A stretch of DNA of 64,000 nt from contig NZ_CP020738.1 of the NCBI RefSeq assembly GCF_002097715.1, positions 1,364,001 through 1,428,000 on the forward strand, in the 5' to 3' direction. A model generated the notes under the pieces. The model saw nothing but the letters and a program-made list of their open reading frames with translations, made no database searches and was not told where the DNA came from. The stretch is from Burkholderia ubonensis subsp. mesacidophila. GTDB lineage: Bacteria > Pseudomonadota > Gammaproteobacteria > Burkholderiales > Burkholderiaceae. A program made the position numbers and the translations under genes. This document shows positions 36,251 through 45,716 of the stretch, in pieces (within the stretch, counting starts at the first letter, position 1; each line of letters begins with the position of its first letter).

Positions 36251-36435
36251 TCAAGCCCGCGCCCGGCTGTTGCGCCGCATGAATTACGCCGTTGTGCGGC
36301 GTTGTTTCCGGCGGTATTTTTTTAGACAATTTTATTTCGATATTTTTCAGCGAAACTGCCGACGACGTATCGGCACGCCATTCAGAAACACCAATCAATA
36401 AACCGGCCATTCGCCATTCCGATGGAAACGAGTCC

Positions 36436-37587
36436 ATGACACATCGTGTCAAGCAGCTTACCGGGTTGCGCGCCGTCGCGGTAACGATGGTCGTTGTCGG
36501 ACATGCGGAACACGTCGCGCCCGGCGGCTATACGGGCTGGCTCGCGCCGCTGCGGCTGCTGGCCGACGGCCGGCTCGGCGTACTGATCTTCTTCGTTCTC
36601 AGCGGATTCCTGATCACCAACGTGCTGCTGGGCGAACTGAAGCGCACGGGAAGCATCGCGCTGGCGCCGTTCTATGTCCGGCGCGCGCTGCGGATCTGGC
36701 CGGCCTGCTACGCGTATCTCGCGGTCGTCGCGATTCTGGCGGTGGCGGGGTGGATCGACGTCAGCCCGCACCAGTGGGCGCTTGCCGCGCTGCATCTGTG
36801 GAACTATTCGGTCGGGCTCGGCCTGACCGCCGACACCGCGCTGCATCCCGACGGCGCGTGGTATCTCGGCCATTTCTGGTCGCTGGCGCTCGAGGAGCAG
36901 TTCTACTGGTTCTGGCCGCTGCTGCTGCTGTTCGCCGTGCGGCGCGATAACACGCGCTGGCTGGCGGCGCTGATCCTGATCGTGCCGCTCGTTCGCGCGG
37001 GCACCTATTTCGCCGCGCCGGCGCTGCGCGGCCAGCTGCGGATGATGTTCCATACGGGCATCGATCCGATCCTGATCGGCTGCTACGTGGCGCTCAACCG
37101 GCAGCGGCTGGAGGCGTGGATCGGATCATGGCGCGGCGAGTCGCGCATCGTCACCGCGATCGTCTGCATCGTGCTGTTCGCGATGCCGGTGATCGAATCG
37201 GAACTGCGGGGAGTCTGGAATATCACTTACGGCGTGACGATCGAAGCGGCGTTGATCGGCATTCTGATCGTCGTGCTTAATTTTCGACATGATTTATGGT
37301 GTTCGCGATTGTTGCAAACCAGGCCGCTCGTGTTTATCGGCACGATTTCATTCAGCCTGTATCTGTGGCAGCAACCGTTCGCCAATCCGAACCTGCCGAT
37401 CCCGCATGGCTTTCCGCTCGGCATCCTGGAGGCGTTCGCGGCGGCCATAGCCAGCTACTTCCTCATCGAAAAGCCGTTCCTGCGGCTGAAAGACCGCTAT
37501 TCGGCGCGCGGCGCGCAACGCGCGCGCGACGGCGGGCTGAGGATGCCGGCGGGGACCGATGCGATCGGGCCCAAAGTCGCGGAGTAG
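36436..37587 (+). CDS. Acyltransferase 3 family membrane protein (OafA/YrhL type)
   Basis: 383-residue polytopic inner-membrane O-acyltransferase. The opening LTGLRAVAVTMVVVGHAEH carries the conserved Arg and His, followed by GVLIFFVLSGFLITNVLL, YVRRALRIWPACYAYL and GHFWSLALEEQFYWFWPLLL, all typical of the family; about ten hydrophobic segments follow. Such enzymes acetylate or otherwise acylate cell-surface polysaccharides or lipids. No glycan genes adjoin it, so the acceptor is unknown; PNAG is an option on the same chromosome segment but only by proximity. ATG 36436 was chosen because the family motif begins eight residues later; an in-frame upstream ATG at 36292 is followed by sequence with no family character. 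Confidence 0.88.
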   Translation: MTHRVKQLTGLRAVAVTMVVVGHAEHVAPGGYTGWLAPLRLLADGRLGVLIFFVLSGFLITNVLLGELKRTGSIALAPFYVRRALRIWPACYAYLAVVAILAVAGWIDVSPHQWALAALHLWNYSVGLGLTADTALHPDGAWYLGHFWSLALEEQFYWFWPLLLLFAVRRDNTRWLAALILIVPLVRAGTYFAAPALRGQLRMMFHTGIDPILIGCYVALNRQRLEAWIGSWRGESRIVTAIVCIVLFAMPVIESELRGVWNITYGVTIEAALIGILIVVLNFRHDLWCSRLLQTRPLVFIGTISFSLYLWQQPFANPNLPIPHGFPLGILEAFAAAIASYFLIEKPFLRLKDRYSARGAQRARDGGLRMPAGTDAIGPKVAE

Positions 37588-38448: not shown

Positions 38449-38470
38449 AAAAAAGGCCCTTGCGGGCCTT
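38449..38470 (-). terminator. Rho-independent terminator of the phosphonate operon
   Basis: On the minus strand AAGGCCC and GGGCCTT (plus positions 53-59 and 64-70 of this 38.4 kb block) form a 7-bp stem with a 4-base loop, followed by a run of six T (plus 38449-38454 are A). It lies 25 bp after the phnW stop codon. Confidence 0.85.
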
Positions 38471-38494: not shown

Positions 38495-39559
38495 TCAGCG
38501 CGTGAGCGCCGTGAACCCGTCCAGCAGCCGCTCGACGTCGGCCGCTTCGATCGCGCCCATCGTCGAGATGCGGAACAGTTCCTTCGACAGCCCGCCTTGC
38601 CCCGCGTAGATCACGAAGCCGCGCGTCTTCAGCCCGTCGTGCAGCTGTTCGTACGTCACGCCCTTTGGCAGACGGTACGCGCGCAGCACGACCGACGACG
38701 CGCCCTCGGGCAGCACGAGCGGCATCCCGCGCGCGGCGAGGCCCGCTTGCGCCTGGTCGGCGAGCGCCTTGTAGCGTGCATGGCGCGCGCGCCAGCCGCC
38801 GGCTTCGTCGAATTCGCGCAGCGCCTCGACGAGCGCGTAGTACGCGTGCACCGACGGCGTGAACGGCGTGTTGCGCTGGTCCTGCAGCTTCGCGAGGCGG
38901 CCGAGGTCGAGGTAGTACGTGCGGCTCGCGGCTTGCGCGAGCGCGCTGCGGCGCACGATCACGAACGCCGCGCCCGGCACGCCGTGCAGGCACTTGTTCG
39001 CGGTCGCGGCGACCGCATCGATGTCGCCGCCCGCAAAATCGATCGCCTCCGCGCCGAAGCTGCTGACGCCGTCGACGAGCAGCTTCACGCCGCGTGCGCG
39101 GCACACGTCGGCGATCGCGCCGAGGTCGTTCAGGCGGCCGGTCGTCGTTTCGTGATGGATCACGGCGACGTGCGAGAAGCCGCCCGCGTCGAGCCGCGCG
39201 GCGATCTGCGCGAGGTCGGGCGCCTGCATCCATTCGTGCTTCAGCACATCGTGCGCGATCCCGTACTGCGTCGCGATCTGCGCGATCCGCTCGCCGTACA
39301 CGCCGTTCTCGATCACGAGCAGCTTGCCGCCCTGCGGGACGAGCGCCGCGATCATGCTTTCGACGGCGGCGGTGCCCGAGCCCGTCATCAGCACGGCGGC
39401 CCATTCGGCCGGATCGAGCTCGTACGCCGCGACGAGACGCGCGCGCGCCTCGTCCTGCAGGTCGAAGAACTCGCTTTCGCGATGGCACAGGTCGGGTTGC
39501 AGCAGGCTGCGGCGCACGCGTTCGGTCAGCGTTACCGGGCCGGGGTTCAGCAGCAGCAT
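38495..39559 (-). CDS. phnW: 2-aminoethylphosphonate--pyruvate transaminase
   Basis: 354-residue class V PLP aminotransferase interconverting phosphonoacetaldehyde and 2-aminoethylphosphonate. Family landmarks: LNPGPVTLTERVRRSL at the N-terminus, VLMTGSGTAAVESMIA for the phosphate cup, HHETTTGRLNDL, and the PLP lysine K189 in ATANKCLHGVPGAAF. The ATG at 39559 overlaps the aepY stop by one base (TGATG); the in-frame TTG one codon earlier is not needed. PhnW is often catabolic, but here it follows PEP mutase and phosphonopyruvate decarboxylase, so it runs in the biosynthetic direction and is the last gene before the terminator at 38449-38470. Confidence 0.93.
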   Translation of the reverse strand: MLLLNPGPVTLTERVRRSLLQPDLCHRESEFFDLQDEARARLVAAYELDPAEWAAVLMTGSGTAAVESMIAALVPQGGKLLVIENGVYGERIAQIATQYGIAHDVLKHEWMQAPDLAQIAARLDAGGFSHVAVIHHETTTGRLNDLGAIADVCRARGVKLLVDGVSSFGAEAIDFAGGDIDAVAATANKCLHGVPGAAFVIVRRSALAQAASRTYYLDLGRLAKLQDQRNTPFTPSVHAYYALVEALREFDEAGGWRARHARYKALADQAQAGLAARGMPLVLPEGASSVVLRAYRLPKGVTYEQLHDGLKTRGFVIYAGQGGLSKELFRISTMGAIEAADVERLLDGFTALTR

Positions 39560-40740
39560 CAATGGGCTCCTTCAGCGTGGGCTTCGGTCTGTGCGGCGCC
39601 GATGTGCCGCATCAGGCGGGTCTTGACCTCGACCGGCGTGACGGTCGGGCGGGGCAGCCCGTCGGGCACGCCGGTGCGGATCGCGATGCGCACGAACTGC
39701 GCGCCGTCCGCGCGCGCGTCCAGCGCCGCGTCCAGCACGTCGAGCGTGTCGCCTTCGGACGCCGACGCGTAGCCGCACGCGGCGGCGACGCCGGCGAACG
39801 ACACGTGCTGCGATACGGTGGCCTGGCCGCCCGTCGATTCGTGCGCGCCGTTGTCGAGCAGCACGTGCGTGAGGTTCGCGGGGCCGTAGGCGCCGAGCGT
39901 CGCGAACGCGCCCATGCGCATCAGCGCGGCGCCGTCGCCGTCGACCGCGACGACCTTCAGGTCGGGCCGCGCGAGCGCGAGGCCGAGCGCGAGCGGCGTC
40001 ACGCAGCCCATCGAGCCGACCATGTACAGCTGGTTCGGGCGATCGTCGATTGCATACAGCTCGCGGCCGCAGAAGCCGGTCGACGCGAGCACGACGGTCG
40101 AATCGACCGGCGTGTGCGCGATCACGCGCTGCAGCGCGTCGTGGCGGGTCGGCAGCGTATCGGCCGATGCCGCCTGCGACGACGACTGGGCGGCGACGTG
40201 CGCGCGCGGCGTCGCCGCCGGGTTCGCCTTCAGCTCATACGGCGCGACGCTGCCTTTCTGCATCACGAGCGCGTACGGGCGGCCGGTCGCGTCCATGTGC
40301 GCGATCGCGCGGTCGAGCGCCGGGCCGACCGCGTCGGGATCGGTCGGGAAGGTCTCCCACGGGATCTCCATCGTGTCGAGCATCGCGGGCGTGATCGGCC
40401 CCATCAGCGCGTGCTGCGGCTCGTCGGGCACGCCCGGCTGGCCGCGCCACGTGACGATCAGCAGCTGCGGCAGGCGGAACGTCCACGTGAGCGACGTGAG
40501 CGGGCTCACCGCGTTGCCGAGCCCCGAGTTCTGCATCATCGCGATCCCGCGCTTGCCGCCGAGCGTGGCTCCTGCGATCAGCGCGACCGCGTCGCCTTCG
40601 TTCGCGGCCGACAGGTAGTGCAGCGTCGGGTCCTGCAGCACGTAGTTGATGAACGGCGTCAGGTACGAGCAGGGCACACCCGCGTACCAGTCGAAGCCGC
40701 GTTCGCGCGCGGCCTCGACGAACTGGGCCGCATCGATCAT
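39559..40740 (-). CDS. aepY: Phosphonopyruvate decarboxylase
   Basis: 393-residue thiamine-diphosphate enzyme converting 3-phosphonopyruvate to phosphonoacetaldehyde, the irreversible step that pulls the PEP mutase equilibrium. N-terminal blocks [15 protein letters not shown] and [20 protein letters not shown] (with the cofactor-activating Glu) and [13 protein letters not shown] are typical. The ThDP-binding motif is [20 protein letters not shown] followed by [15 protein letters not shown] 35-residue Ala/Ser-rich linker ([19 protein letters not shown]) separates the two halves. Start ATG 40740 overlaps the aepX stop as ATGA. Confidence 0.95.
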
Positions 40741-42425
40741 TGCGCGCCTCCGTTGCCCGCGCCCGGCTCGGACAGCGGCGTCTGGCCGTGCGCGAAATCG
40801 CCCGCGCGGCGGAAGTCTTCCAGGTCGTTGACGCCGCGCCAGTGGCCGTGCACGTACTGCACCTCGATCTTCTCGCCGGCGGCGATCAGCTCGTTGAGGA
40901 GCGAGGGGATGTCGAGCGTGTCGAAATCGTCGCGCGCCTGCAGGGTCGCGAGCATCGCCTTCAGGCGCTCGACGCCCGCGCCGCGCACGTTCAGCAGGCC
41001 GATCCAGCGGCCGTGCGGCGTGCCTTCGGCGACATCGCTCGACACGCGCTGCAGATAGGTCTTCTGGCCGAACAGGCCGCGGTCGTCGGCGGCCGAGCAG
41101 AGCGCGAAGTCGCGCACGCTCTGGTTCGACGGCTGCGTCAGCGACGAATCGACGACGACGCTGAACTCGGCCTCGCTCTCCGCGAGGTCGCGCAGGATGT
41201 AGCTGCGGAACAGCAGGTCGCCGTACGAGATCACGGTGTCGCCGGTCAGGCGCCCGGCCGCGCACGCGAGCGACGCGAGCTCGCCCGTCTGCGCATGACG
41301 CTCGTTGACGACGACCTTGATGCCCGACGTGTCGATCGCGTCGGCGCGGTAGCCGCCGACCACGGTGATGTCGTTCACGCCGTGCTTCTTGAAGCCGTCG
41401 ACGAGCCAGCGCAGGAGCGGCTTGCCGGCGACCGGCAGCATGACCTTCGGCTTGTCTTCGGTGACGGCTTCCAGCCCCTTGCCGCGGCTCGCGGCGAGCA
41501 CGATCGCGGCGTTCGACGCGCGCGACGACGACGACAGGTAAATGCGCTCGGCCGCCGAGTATTCGTCGGCGTCCTGCAGGCGGAAGATCTCGTTGACCGA
41601 CGCGACGCGGTCCTCGACGTTGATCAGCGTTTCGTTCTCGTGGATCTCGCGCGCGACGGCCTGCATCGCGGACGCCGATGCGCGGATCAGATGGTTCGCC
41701 CAGATCACGGTGCTGATGCCGGCCTGGCGGAACACGTCGGTCGGCGTGCTGTAGTACTTGGTCGGCACGATCACGAGCGGCGCCTTGCCGCTCCATTCGC
41801 GCGCGAACTGCAGGATCTCGTCCGGGCGCGACAGCTTGCTGTGGATCAGGATCGCGTCCGCGCCGGCTTCCGCATACGCGTTCGCGCGGCGCAGCGCCTC
41901 GTCCATCCCCCAGCCGGCGATCAGCGCCTCGACGCGCGCGACGATCGAGAAGTCGGGGTCGCTCTGCGAATCCTTGCCGGCCTTGATCTTGCCGCAGAAC
42001 TCGTCGATCTCGGCGAGCGGCTGGCGCTCGCCGTCGATGAAGCTGTTGGTCTTCGGGAACTGCTTGTCCTCGATGCACACGCCCGCGATGCCGCGCTGCT
42101 CGAGCTTCCTCACGAGGCGGCGCACGTTGTTGAAGTTGCCGTAGCCGGTGTCGCCGTCGAGCAGGATCGGCAGGTCGCTCGCGTCGGCCATGAACTCGAG
42201 CACGTCGACGACCTGGGTCCAGCTCGCCTCGTTGTTGTCGCGCACGCCGAACTGCGCGGAGATCGCGAGGCCGGACGCCCAGATCCCCTTGAAGCCGGCC
42301 TCGCGGACGATCCGCGCGGACAGGCCGTTGTGCGCTTCCATCAGGAATTCGAGGTCGCTGCTGACGAGCATGCGGCGCAGGCGGGCGCTGCGCGATTCGG
42401 TGAAATTGGGTTCGCGTGCGTTCAT
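40737..42425 (-). CDS. aepX: Phosphoenolpyruvate mutase fused to a nucleotidyltransferase
   Basis: 562 residues in two domains. Residues 1-295 are PEP mutase, forming the C-P bond of phosphonopyruvate, with [19 protein letters not shown] and the diagnostic [10 protein letters not shown] at 119-128. Residues from about 305 are a nucleotidyltransferase with [20 protein letters not shown] and [20 protein letters not shown]; the usual AAGxGxR signature is altered to ASRGKGL, a form also seen in mutase-linked CTP transferases that activate phosphonates. So one polypeptide probably starts the path and activates the finished phosphonate (for example to CMP-2-aminoethylphosphonate). ATG 42425 overlaps the previous gene's stop (ATGA). 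Confidence 0.93.
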
Positions 42426-43189
42426 CGTGTAGCTCCGGCGGTAGTGCGTTGAATCAGGGGGAGGATGTCCTGCGTGGCGCGCGCGACATCGTTCGGGAAG
42501 TCGATCTCGATCCACGGCGCGCCCGTCACGTCGGCGACGTCGAACGAATGGCCGCCTTCGAGCAGCAGGTCGCGCACGGCTTCCTCGTGCGGCATGTTCG
42601 CGCGGCCGCTGTCGACGTAGCCCGCGACGATCGCCGCGAGGCGGCGCGCGGTGTGTTCGGTGAAGCGGAAGAAGCCGACCGATTCGCCGATCGTGTCGTA
42701 GTCGAGGTCGACGGCGAGCTGCTTGCGCAGCTCGACCGGCACGCCGTTCTTCAGGCACAGCTTGACGGGCTCGTCGCCCGCTTCGAAATCGCGGTCGATC
42801 AGCAGGCGGTCGACCGGCTGGTCGGGGTTGGCCACGAGCGCGTGCAGGATGTTTTCGTCGTACAGCACGTCGGCGTCCATCAGCAGCACGTCGCCGCCGC
42901 GCGTCATCGCGTCGGCGGCCGTATGCACGGTCAGCACGCTGCCGAGATCGTAGCGCTCGTTCAGCACGATTTCCGCGCGGCGGCCGAGGCGCTTCAGTTC
43001 TTCCTCGACCTTGCCGGACTGGAAGCCCAGCGCCAGCACGATCTCGTCGACGCCGGCGGCGTCGAGCACGCGCAAGTGGCGCTCGAGCAGCGAGGCGTCG
43101 TCGAAGCGCAGCAGACACTTCGGGAATTGCGCTTCGGGAGGTTGCTGCAGGCGCAAGCCGAGGCCTGCCGCAAGAATGATGGCTCGCAT
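42422..43189 (-). CDS. Phosphocholine/sugar-phosphate-type nucleotidyltransferase
   Basis: 255-residue NTP transferase resembling LicC-like phosphocholine cytidylyltransferases. It opens [16 protein letters not shown] with the nucleotide loop, then [20 protein letters not shown], the metal-binding [15 protein letters not shown], and [16 protein letters not shown] near the end. ATG 43189 has a GGAG site; an in-frame TTG at 43204 adds five residues without support. It is the second nucleotidyltransferase of the operon, beside the one fused to PEP mutase, so it either activates the phosphonate head group (and the fused domain does something else) or makes a different CDP-alcohol. It follows the flippase-like gene after 42 bp. 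Confidence 0.85.
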
Positions 43190-43231
43190 GTGTTCTCCAA
43201 CCAAAAAATCGACTGAACGATCCTGGATCGA

Positions 43232-44233
43232 TCAGTCGGCGAGGGGCTGCGGCGCACGGCGCCGCTGCCAGTTTCTTTCACTGAAATGCAGATAGAGCAG
43301 GCCGGGCAGGCCGAGCGCGAGTTCGCGCGCGCGCTTCGCGAGCGACAGCGCGAGCGCCGCGTCGGGCGGCAGGCCGACGAGCGGCGCGAGCAGCAGGTAG
43401 CCGCCTTCCTGCGCGCCGAGCGAGCCCGGGATCGCGAAGGCGGCGCCGCGGATCGCCTGGCCGACGCTTTCGAGCAGCAGCGCGTCGAGCCAGCTCACCG
43501 GATGCCCGAGGAAATGCAGCGCGAGCCACACTTCCGCGGTGCCGACGATCCAGCCGACGAAACTCAGCGCGAAGGTCGACGCCACCTTGCGGCGCTCGCC
43601 GTACAGCGTGCCGACCGCCGCGTCGATCGCGTCCGCGCGGGTCGCGAGCGACGACCAGTCGCGCGGGCCGAGCAGCTTCGATGCGACGCGCAGGCCGCGG
43701 CCGAACAGCCCGCGCCGCTGCGCGGCATAGAACAGCAGCGCGCAGCCGCCGAGCACGCCGGTCGCGATCAGCGCCGGCGTGCGCAGGTGCGCGACCGATT
43801 CGTGGGTCGCGACCATGCTGAACGCGGCGATGCCGACGAGCGCGAACGCCATCTGCGCGAGCGCCTGCATCGTCGTGCTGACGGTGATCGCCGCGGCGGC
43901 ATCCGCCATCCGCGTGCCGCGCTGCGCGAGGTAGCGCACCATCAGCACGGGGCCGCCGATCTGCCCGGCGGGCAGCAGGCTGTTGACCGATTCGCCGACC
44001 CAGCGCGCGCGCAGCGCGTTGCCGAGCTCGGCGCCGGGCTCGCCCTTGCGGAACATCACCGCGATCGCCGCCGCATCGATCACGAGCGGCACGACGTGGA
44101 ACGCCGCGACGAGCGCGAGCCCCCAGCCGGCCGCAAGGAACGTCGACGCGACCGCGCCGACGCCCTGCCACGCGAGCAGGGCGACGAACAGGGCCGTCCC
44201 GAGGGACAGCAGGATCATGCCGGCGCGTGTCAT
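43232..44233 (-). CDS. Flippase-like integral membrane protein (LPG synthase TM / UPF0104 family)
   Basis: 333-residue polytopic membrane protein of the lysylphosphatidylglycerol-synthase transmembrane family, without a catalytic GNAT-type domain. Segments are visible from residue 6 ([17 protein letters not shown]) through [20 protein letters not shown], the most conserved stretch of the family, and [20 protein letters not shown] followed by [20 protein letters not shown]. Relatives are linked to lipid translocation or to hopanoid handling (HpnL). In this operon it would move a phosphonolipid, or its precursor, across the inner membrane (inference). Start ATG 44233 overlaps the oxygenase stop (ATGA). 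Confidence 0.85.
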
Positions 44234-45039
44234 GACCCGGTCGTGCGTCGCGTCGCCAGCTGCTTGAACACTTGGCGGAACCCGAAGTACGCGATCGCGT
44301 CCTTCATGTTCGAGATGAAGCGCTTCCACGGCCGCATGCCGGGGTCGGTGACGTATTCGAACGTGAGCGACACGCGCATCTCGTTCTGGCCGAGCGGCGT
44401 GACGCGATGGCGCAGCTTGTCGCCGTCGAACAGCACGATGCCGCCGTCGGCGATCTGCACCGTGCCCGGCTCGTCGGGCACGTCCGGGTTGCGCGTATGC
44501 AGCTCGTAGTCGAGGCGGCACGAAGAGTCGTCGATCACGCCGATCAGCAGCGTGTAGCGGCGGCCGTCGTAGTACGACGTGTCGTAGTGCCAGCCGATGT
44601 GGTCGCCCGGCTTCGTGTAGTAATACAGCGCGTATGCGTGCGGATCGTCGTCCGGCGACAGCAGCAGCGTGTCGCCTGTGAGCTTCTCGAGGAAGCCGAT
44701 CAGCGCCTTCGAGCGGTACAGCTCGGCAATGTACGGCGCCTTCGCGTCGATCGTGTGGCGGCTCACGCTGCCGCCTTGCTTGTGGCCGGGCAGGTAATTG
44801 CGGTTGAGGTCGGCCGTGAGCGTGCGCGCGGCGTCCGCGAGCTTCGCGTGCGCGTCGGGCGGCAGGAACGTGTCGAGATACAGGAACGACCCCTGGCGCG
44901 TGTAGTCGTCGCGCAGGCGGCCGACGTCGAGCCGGCCGACGCAGTCGGCCACGGTGCGGTCTGGCGTGGCCGCCGCTGCGCGCACGGGCGCGGGGCGTGC
45001 CGGGTTCAGCACGGAGTCGTCGCGTGTGCTGGGAGTCAT
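44230..45039 (-). CDS. Fe(II)/2-oxoglutarate-dependent oxygenase
   Basis: 269-residue cytosolic non-haem iron oxygenase of the prolyl-hydroxylase-like type. The metal triad is H151 and D153 in IGWHYDTSYYDG and H211 in DGDKLRHRVTPLG; R222 in NEMRVSLTFEY would bind 2-oxoglutarate. A further conserved block is HAYALYYYTKPGDH. The C-terminus (WKRFISNMKDAIAYFGFRQ) is amphipathic and could bring it to the membrane. ATGA overlaps link it to the CDP-alcohol phosphatidyltransferase before it and the flippase-like gene after it. Its likely substrate is the phosphonate, its nucleotide or the finished lipid: hydroxylation next to the C-P bond is known chemistry for this superfamily (inference for this gene). 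Confidence 0.85.
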   Translation of the reverse strand: MTPSTRDDSVLNPARPAPVRAAAATPDRTVADCVGRLDVGRLRDDYTRQGSFLYLDTFLPPDAHAKLADAARTLTADLNRNYLPGHKQGGSVSRHTIDAKAPYIAELYRSKALIGFLEKLTGDTLLLSPDDDPHAYALYYYTKPGDHIGWHYDTSYYDGRRYTLLIGVIDDSSCRLDYELHTRNPDVPDEPGTVQIADGGIVLFDGDKLRHRVTPLGQNEMRVSLTFEYVTDPGMRPWKRFISNMKDAIAYFGFRQVFKQLATRRTTGS

Positions 45040-45716
45040 TTGCTTGCCTGGATTTCGGTTGGGTTCTGCGGCAGGGCGCCGCGACGGACGATGCGCCACC
45101 AGTCGATCACGACCCAGGCGGCGAACAGCGGCGCGCCGATCGACGCCGCCAGCAGGAACGGTTCGACGCCATTGACGAGCGTCACGAGCGGCAGCAGGTA
45201 GAGAACGTCCTCGGTCTCGAAGCCGCCTGCGAACGCCTGCTTGGTGCCGGCCTTGCCGGCGAACGATTCGATCCGCATCCGCAGATAGAAGATCAGCGCG
45301 ACCGCCGCGCCGGCCGCCGCGCCGAGCAGCACCGGCGACGCGGCCATCTGGCCGCCTTGGGCGACGATGCCGACGCCCATGCTGACGAACAGTGCGATCG
45401 TGACGAGCGCGTCCGCCGCGAGGTCGTAGAAATGCCCGATCTTGCTCGACTTGCCGCTGATGCGCGCGAGTTCGCCGTCGGTGTGGTCGACGAAGTTCGA
45501 CAGCACGATCAGGAACGCGCCGATATTGCTCCAGCCGTAGCCGCCTTGGGCAAGGGCCCAGGCGCCGGCAAGGCCGATCAGCAGGCGGACAGTGGTGAGG
45601 TGATTCGGGGTAACGGGGGTGTCGACGAGCGGCCGGACGAGGGCGCGCGCGAGCCGCGCATCCCACGTGCGGGGTAGCGGTGGCTCGGAACGTTTGGCGG
45701 TTTTTCTTTGGTCCAT
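45036..45716 (-). CDS. CDP-alcohol phosphatidyltransferase
   Basis: 226-residue membrane enzyme that swaps CMP from a CDP-alcohol for another alcohol. The family signature D-x2-D-G-x2-A-R-x8-G-x3-D-x3-D is complete: D77, D80-G81, A84-R85, G94, D98 and D102. Membrane segments surround it (LLIGLAGAWALAQGGY, WSNIGAFLIVLSNFV, ALVTIALFVSMGVGIVA, LLGAAAGAAVALIFYL). As first gene of the phosphonate operon it probably transfers a cytidylyl-activated phosphonate to diacylglycerol or a related lipid, making a phosphonolipid (inference). ATG 45716 lies just after an AT-rich -10-like TATATATT on the minus strand. It overlaps the oxygenase gene by ATGA. Confidence 0.88.
   Translation of the reverse strand: MDQRKTAKRSEPPLPRTWDARLARALVRPLVDTPVTPNHLTTVRLLIGLAGAWALAQGGYGWSNIGAFLIVLSNFVDHTDGELARISGKSSKIGHFYDLAADALVTIALFVSMGVGIVAQGGQMAASPVLLGAAAGAAVALIFYLRMRIESFAGKAGTKQAFAGGFETEDVLYLLPLVTLVNGVEPFLLAASIGAPLFAAWVVIDWWRIVRRGALPQNPTEIQASK

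Follow-up and report, generated by a model that had tools for sequence, protein, structure and literature searches.

What does a compact operon of seven overlapping genes in Burkholderia ubonensis subsp. mesacidophila make, and which of its two nucleotidyltransferase domains activates the product for transfer? The operon lies in a 64,000-nucleotide (nt) stretch of DNA, hereafter called the window (G000:C2:1364001-1428000); the genome has four contigs and totals 7.84 Mb. A first-pass annotation made from the letters alone had described a coupled operon that appears to make, hydroxylate and flip a phosphonolipid; all seven of its open reading frames are present on the minus strand, from 45716 to 38495, in the order CDP, OXY, HPNL, NT1, PEPM-NT2, PPD, and PHNW, and the interpretation itself is partly supported. 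Judged by its anatomy, its protein families and its co-inheritance, the operon is real, conserved, and one functional unit. We are highly confident that the seven genes serve one 2-aminoethylphosphonate (AEP) pathway, and we think it probable, from sequence comparison, that the whole chain ends in a phosphonolipid of the membrane whose head group derives from AEP and is probably hydroxylated. NT1 is likely the synthetase of cytidine monophosphate (CMP)-AEP, and the mutase-fused NT2 of Burkholderiaceae is probably without cytidylyltransferase activity. The features of the operon are as follows (phosphoenolpyruvate, PEP; 2-oxoglutarate, 2OG; amino acids, aa).

45036..45716, minus strand: CDP-alcohol phosphotransferase (CDP), 226 aa; PF01066, 55.4 bits (cut-off 22)
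44230..45039, minus strand: Fe(II)/2OG oxygenase (OXY), HalD/BesD-related, 269 aa; PF23169, 47.8 bits (cut-off 26)
43232..44233, minus strand: HpnL-type LPG_synthase_TM membrane protein (HPNL), proposed flippase, 333 aa; TIGR03476, 371.5 bits (cut-off 195.65); PF03706, 92.4 bits
42422..43189, minus strand: stand-alone nucleotidyltransferase (NT1), PntC-like, 255 aa; best solved match PntC 6pd1
40737..42425, minus strand: AepX fusion (PEPM-NT2), PEP mutase plus nucleotidyltransferase-like domain, 562 aa
41526..42425, minus strand: PEP mutase domain (PEPM) of AepX; TIGR02320, 410 bits (cut-off 319.55)
40737..41525, minus strand: C-terminal nucleotidyltransferase-like domain (NT2) of AepX; PF12804, 50.2 bits
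39559..40740, minus strand: phosphonopyruvate decarboxylase (PPD), 393 aa; TIGR03297, 478 bits (cut-off 312.5)
38495..39559, minus strand: AEP transaminase (PHNW/AepZ), 354 aa; TIGR03301, 401.5 bits (cut-off 360.8)
38449..38470, minus strand: intrinsic terminator with a 7-bp stem, a GCAA loop, and four U; fold −13 kcal/mol, z −3.34

The overlaps and the terminator that the first-pass annotation had placed here were both found. Five of the six junctions overlap, as ATGA at CDP/OXY, OXY/HPNL, NT1/PEPM, and PEPM/PPD and as TGATG at PPD/PHNW, and the sole junction without overlap is HPNL/NT1, with a 42-nt gap. The terminator after PHNW was picked up by folding and is absent from the list of a simple terminator scan. 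A simple promoter scan of the window gave no promoter-like site, and scans of the window for tRNA genes and Rfam families gave none. Families were assigned by NCBIfam models with curated cut-offs, and Pfam was in agreement. The AEP synthesis genes claimed earlier stand: the window AepX carries the EDKxxxxxNS motif of PEP mutase alongside its TIGR02320 score over the cut-off, and the PPD (TIGR03297) and AEP transaminase (TIGR03301) genes, both over their cut-offs, adjoin the mutase gene, which is the arrangement that we took to mark an AEP pathway.

The same order recurs across the family. An oxygenase-alignment scan of named genomes gave 328 loci, of which the best 80 were kept and the window proteins then BLASTed on them; two of the 80 (L006 and L070) are interrupted by contig ends. 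The full order CDP-OXY-HPNL-NT1-PEPM-NT2-PPD-PHNW is found in 43 of the 80 (Burkholderia, eight Cupriavidus, one Ralstonia, and one other Burkholderiaceae), which exceeds chance. The overlaps are conserved as well, with −4 at OXY/HPNL in 74/80, at CDP/OXY in 48/73, at NT1/PEPM in 42/43, and at PEPM/PPD in 42/43, and −1 at PPD/PHNW in 31/42; HPNL/NT1 overlaps in 0/78 loci. The flanks are less conserved than the operon: among the 43 full-order loci, four window neighbors each found a match in 14 to 32. Mycetohabitans rhizoxinica HKI 454 also has the full cluster, on its megaplasmid (L191 8222-15525), where seven consecutive annotated genes correspond to it.

In 35 of the 80 loci, CDP-OXY-HPNL-NT1 stands alone (32 Paraburkholderia and 3 Burkholderia sp.). 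A PEP mutase search of 38 genomes, three of them full-operon controls, was positive in 36, and placed a PEP mutase over the cut-off elsewhere in the genome for 33 of the 35 short-form genomes. The link between the two halves is therefore more than proximity, and a four-gene module independent of phosphonates is ruled out by the same 33 genomes. At the PEP mutase locus of the split genomes, NT2 and PPD match in 28/28 examined (of 33), and PHNW follows in all four of the larger stretches retrieved for such genomes (L152-L155). A second NT1 lies directly 5′ of PEPM-NT2 at L152 6114-10850 and L153 350-5110, and the genomes G431 and G423 carry NT1 twice.

Oxygenase and PEP mutase were also tallied in 200 Burkholderiaceae genomes, the two tallies being taken as one set on the basis of shared genome handles, since each names 20 of the genomes without a match. 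Both genes occur in 110 genomes, the oxygenase alone in 3, the PEP mutase alone in 1, and neither in 86, that is, the oxygenase in 113/200 (11/25 genera) and a PEP mutase over the cut-off in 111/200. Co-occurrence within the set, which the first-pass annotation had suggested as a check, is thus seen both in gene order (43/80 loci) and in gene content (110/200 genomes with both genes versus 4 with them apart). The two genes lie within 6 kb of each other in 92/110 genomes; of the 18 unlinked genomes, 17 belong to genus g6, in which no linked case was seen, and one (G604) has the two genes on two contigs. Genus g6 appears to include Paraburkholderia, to judge by coordinates shared between G490 and G402 (the Paraburkholderia monticola genome) and between G322 and G404 (that of Paraburkholderia metrosideri). 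In two of the three oxygenase-only genomes, G568 (C12) and G598 (C97), the oxygenase is partial or stop-broken and a PEP mutase over the cut-off is missing. Across the phylum, a PEP mutase over the cut-off was found in 19/398 sampled genomes. Second PEP mutase genes over the cut-off are present at G508:C2:1737490-1738338 and G587:C3:502531-503379, in the window's genus, and likely belong to other phosphonate pathways.

The earlier claim that two nucleotidyltransferases could activate AEP holds in part: both are present and NT1 is cytidylyltransferase-like, but NT2 is a domain fused into AepX, not a separate gene, and its catalytic signature is lost in 85/85 sequences. Our residue counts cover sequences matching more than 60% of the domain, with the window and a few same-genome repeats included; 83 of 85 NT2, 90 of 94 NT1, and 81 of 81 OXY and CDP sequences are distinct. 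The AepX alignment was built from PEPM matches of more than 50% identity without unread letters, and L028 (68 N) is in neither this alignment nor the NT2 set. The best solved match of NT1 is Treponema denticola PntC (6pd1, residues 2-246, E = 7.5e-10), and GxGLR...PK, DAD, and W[IV]EID are kept in 94/94 sequences. The PntC signature is given as GXG(T/S)RX4-8PK, and alanine at R15, K25, or K153 of the T. denticola enzyme leaves less than 10% activity (PMC6697681). The NT1 loop, GLGLR followed by nine residues and PK, keeps the Arg and Lys in 94/94 and differs from this signature in having Leu for T/S and a spacing of 9.

NT2, whose best solved match is LicC over the N-terminal half only, lacks both the signature Arg and the metal-site acid by which we judged a PntC-type enzyme. 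The Arg is replaced in 85/85 Burkholderiaceae sequences (Gly in 77, Asn in 8), the loop reading Arg-Gly-x-Gly/Asn-Leu, and the metal-site acids have become Gly and Asn in 85/85 (His-Trp-Arg-Gly-Val-Asn-Asp). In sugar nucleotidyltransferases of solved structure, Trp-Met-Asp aligns to the NT2 metal site, in a very weak second stretch of the match. Because NT2 has lost the Arg and the metal-site acids and NT1 keeps them, the assignment of CMP-AEP synthesis to NT1 is favored; it also fits that NT1 stays with the transferase in split operons and in two Paraburkholderia loci that lack PEPM-NT2 (L046 and L076). We lean, a little beyond an even chance, toward the view that the NT2 of Burkholderiaceae is a conserved pseudo-cytidylyltransferase under constraint, perhaps binding cytidine triphosphate (CTP), AEP, or CMP-AEP to control or stabilize the uphill mutase, and that NT1 carries out the activation for a hydroxy-AEP phosphonolipid. 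If so, some mutase-fused nucleotidyltransferases counted in the literature would not be enzymes of that kind. No earlier report of the NT2 residue loss was found among the titles and passages listed in our literature search.

Outside Burkholderiaceae, the picture is mixed. Among the best 120 of 2,090 relatives of a fusion from outside the family, Asp occupies the metal site in 120/120 (Trp-Leu-Asp-Ile/Val), and the loop likewise departs from the signature (Ser/Ala-Arg/Gln-Gly-x-Glu, Ala, Asp, or Gln); 8 of these 120 are without the mutase motif columns. Five other fusions from outside the family have Asn at the metal site in three cases (L090, L091, and L094) and Asp in two (L095 and L096), and Asp is also found in L145. 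A separate cytidylyltransferase accompanies the fusion in four of six fetched neighborhoods (L144, L145, L146, and L148; for L146 the identification was visual, based on resemblance to the L144 protein), and none was seen in L147 and L149. Since the metal-site residues sort uncleanly with the presence of a separate cytidylyltransferase, we make no claim for NT2 beyond Burkholderiaceae. Three of these neighborhoods differ in content. L144 3150-11572, a distant cluster, encodes PEPM-NT2, PPD, a CTP_transf_like protein, and an iron alcohol dehydrogenase, with a CDP-alcohol transferase on the opposite strand, and would seem to be a version of the same scheme directed to hydroxyethylphosphonate. 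L145 6835-11457 encodes PEPM-NT2, PPD, and PHNW, then a separate PntC-like gene, and gave no oxygenase match. At L147 3167-4285, a gene of the myo-inositol-1-phosphate synthase family lies near a PEPM-NT2 cluster, at a distance of about 2.4 kb from its transaminase gene.

The Fe(II)/2OG oxygenase named in the first-pass annotation is borne out at the level of family and can be refined to a HalD-related protein by its PF23169 score. Its closest named relative, at 96%, is from B. ubonensis, and among the relatives listed many carry the NCBI name HalD/BesD family halogenase and others 2OG-Fe(II) oxygenase. Residues H151, D153, H211, and R222 are invariant across 17 sequences and form the HxD...H triad plus a downstream Arg, a residue that has a role in 2OG hydroxylases. 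The iron site reads H-Y-D in 81/81 sequences. In halogenases, Gly or Ala stands where hydroxylases have the iron-site Asp or Glu (PMC13244439). A halogenase is therefore ruled out by Asp instead of Gly in 81/81, and the His-x-Asp site leads us to expect that OXY acts as a hydroxylase. In an AlphaFold2 model of OXY (mean predicted local distance difference test score 71), a β-rich core is followed by two helices, and helical hydrophobic moments reach their maximum for the protein (0.59-0.68, a suggestive feature) in segments starting at residues 227-236, after the core, a stretch highly conserved among the 17 sequences. OXY thus shares PF23169 with the HalD/BesD amino-acid halogenases and their hydroxylase relatives, but differs from the halogenases in its His-x-Asp iron site, its conserved C-terminal helical stretch, and its location in a phosphonate operon. 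Together with the NT2 residue loss, the hydroxylase-type iron site gives specific predictions for in vitro work.

The remaining two genes encode the candidate membrane steps. The full signature claimed for the CDP-alcohol transferase, DHTDGELARISGKSSKIGHFYDLAADA, is present in the window protein, and DxxDGxxAR...GxxxDxxxD is kept in 81/81 sequences, the window included. The protein is one of five PF01066 matches in its genome, and its best Protein Data Bank match is AF2299 (4o6m, E = 7.8e-7). Both HpnL proteins of the genome are over the TIGR03476 cut-off, with a mutual identity of about 32%. The other HpnL is encoded on contig 1, with hpnI (490.8 bits) and hpnJ (831.5 bits) nearby (L143 5761-10401, G000:C1 ~1245761-1250401). 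It passes the same model as HPNL but is the copy found near hpnI and hpnJ, so HPNL is ruled out as the hopanoid-locus gene. The function of HpnL is described as not established (PMC12583986), and flipping by HPNL is accordingly proposed from membership of the LPG_synthase_TM family alone.

From these families and residues we infer the following pathway, in each of its reactions and likewise in its lipid acceptor, its site of hydroxylation, and its flipping step. Through three members of equivalog-level families, (i) PEPM would convert PEP to phosphonopyruvate; (ii) PPD would decarboxylate phosphonopyruvate to phosphonoacetaldehyde; and (iii) PHNW would transaminate phosphonoacetaldehyde to AEP. 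The PntC-like NT1 would then make CMP-AEP, and NT2, given its lost residues, would not. CDP may use CMP-AEP to attach AEP to a lipid alcohol, diacylglycerol being the simplest choice; OXY may hydroxylate the head group, most likely at C1 to give 1-hydroxy-AEP, before or after attachment; and HPNL may carry the finished lipid across the membrane. Bdellovibrio stolpii is reported to contain hydroxy-AEP in its membrane lipids, and R-hydroxy-AEP is the product of PhnY*, an oxygenase that acts on AEP (PMC8154272); the 1-hydroxy-AEP lipids of that species and PhnY* together provide a precedent for a head-group target of OXY. A lipid head with a carbon-phosphorus bond is expected to withstand the enzymes that cleave the heads of ordinary phospholipids, as PMC5987646 states for phospholipases, and would alter the cell surface. 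The family affected spans soil, plant, fungal, and opportunistic bacteria, with the gene pair in more than half of the sampled genomes (110/200).

Three other assignments have to be weighed against this pathway. CMP-AEP could be spent on a surface glycan or lipopolysaccharide instead of a glycerolipid, the HpnL-type protein flipping a glycan-linked intermediate; the AEP-modified capsular polysaccharide of Bacteroides fragilis is an example of a surface phosphonate of this sort (PMC6697681). The window CDP-alcohol transferase passes no equivalog cut-off, which leaves room for a glycan acceptor, and the opposite strand, downstream of the operon and close to its 3′ end, encodes an Acyl_transf_3 protein (36292-37587, plus strand), of a family that often acts on glycans. 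However, this protein has a match in only 19/43 full-order loci, no glycosyltransferase or LicD-like protein was found among the five flanking window proteins scanned or is listed in the (incomplete) gene table of the 18.7-kb M. rhizoxinica stretch, and CDP belongs to a family of membrane phospholipid synthases; we consider a glycan destination quite improbable. The lipid could also be right and the target of OXY wrong: hydroxylation of the acyl chain or glycerol part would fit membrane contact through the conserved high-moment stretch (0.59-0.68) after the core. This is unlikely in our judgment, given that the nearest solved relatives, although weak matches, are named lysine halogenases or hydroxylases, that the substrate of BesD, a cationic free amino acid, is nearer to AEP than to an acyl chain (PMC10187165), and that 1-hydroxy-AEP heads have the precedent cited above (PMC8154272). 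In the remaining assignment, NT2 would still work as a cytidylyltransferase, through an active site of variant form, and NT1 would activate another alcohol phosphate. PK and YGD are kept in 85/85 NT2 sequences, and NT2 has diverged to a degree also seen among its partners (over 8 Cupriavidus loci, NT2 is on average 72% identical to the window, and the others 66-85%). The variant loop in the best 120 of 2,090 relatives and the metal-site Asn in 3/5 other fusions mean that the changes need not signify lost function, and Fom1, a fused cytidylyltransferase of another family, is active (PMC6697681). Against these stand the Gly at the metal-site acid in 85/85 Burkholderiaceae sequences versus Asp in those 120 relatives, the less than 10% activity of T. 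denticola PntC R15A (PMC6697681), and the nearly full-length resemblance of NT1 to PntC together with its retention beside the transferase in split operons, so that an active NT2 seems doubtful to us.

Several observations weigh against the hydroxy-AEP phosphonolipid that we prefer. The best NCBIfam model for CDP is archaetidylinositol phosphate synthase, at 63.7 of the 180 bits required, with PIP synthase also near, below its cut-off, and no equivalog passed; synthases of these two kinds take a CDP-lipid as donor, opposite to the reaction proposed for CDP. The solved relatives of OXY are amino-acid halogenases and hydroxylases (lysine-named) only at E = 0.005 or weaker, so a lipid-linked substrate is putative. 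Paraburkholderia monticola (L046; G402, taken as the same genome as G490) and P. phosphatilytica (L076; G427) carry the four-gene module, including an oxygenase of full length, but no PEPM or PPD that exceeds the cut-offs; imported AEP would be one explanation. Three genomes, G524 (C1), G610 (C354), and G621 (C29), have an oxygenase with an internal stop or a split match and nonetheless keep the PEP mutase; disruption of the oxygenase thus does not simply go along with loss of its partner. The association of oxygenase and PEP mutase in the 200 genomes (Fisher p = 7.5e-52) has too small a p value because the sampled genomes are related and not independent. Finally, the titles and abstract openings listed from the literature (the first 20 of 66 and of 3,297 hits) contain no report of chemical proof of such a lipid in these genera.

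The first-pass annotation knew of no defined product for this set of genes, a statement that does not hold for predictions: the cluster is already known as such, in published accounts that are proposals and not chemistry. We regard it as known because PMC5987646 names the families and a pathway and PMC8154272 cites a postulate, on genomic grounds, of hydroxy-AEP phospholipids. The legend of Fig. 7 in PMC5987646 (2018), on a phosphonate cluster of lichen Nostoc, includes a homologous Burkholderia cluster for comparison and a proposed pathway adapted from a 2013 PNAS survey. It lists a CDP-alcohol phosphatidyltransferase, a 2OG-Fe(II) oxidase, hpnL, an NTP transferase, pepM, ppd, and an AEP transaminase, as here, and its abbreviations include HAEP (1-hydroxy-2-aminoethylphosphonate), diacylglycerol, and alkyl-acylglycerol. 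Unlike the window operon, it adds unknown genes and a higBA module; the likeness is drawn from the legend and text passages. Five strains of the B. ubonensis group are each listed with one antiSMASH phosphonate cluster (PMC5472815). The Pnt clusters with PntC in PMC6697681 also have PEP mutase, decarboxylase, transaminase, and both a mutase-fused and a stand-alone nucleotidyltransferase, a pairing remarked on there. The three clusters displayed there encode LicD-like genes or glycosyltransferases, whereas the window operon has a CDP-alcohol transferase, an oxygenase, and HpnL. The assays described in the passages of that paper concern stand-alone PntC and a PntC-transaminase fusion, with none of the mutase-fused PF12804 domain among them. 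Other strains of Mycetohabitans, the genus in which the full cluster lies on a megaplasmid, were sourced from Rhizopus microsporus, which, with the lichen Nostoc cluster, hints at an association with fungi.

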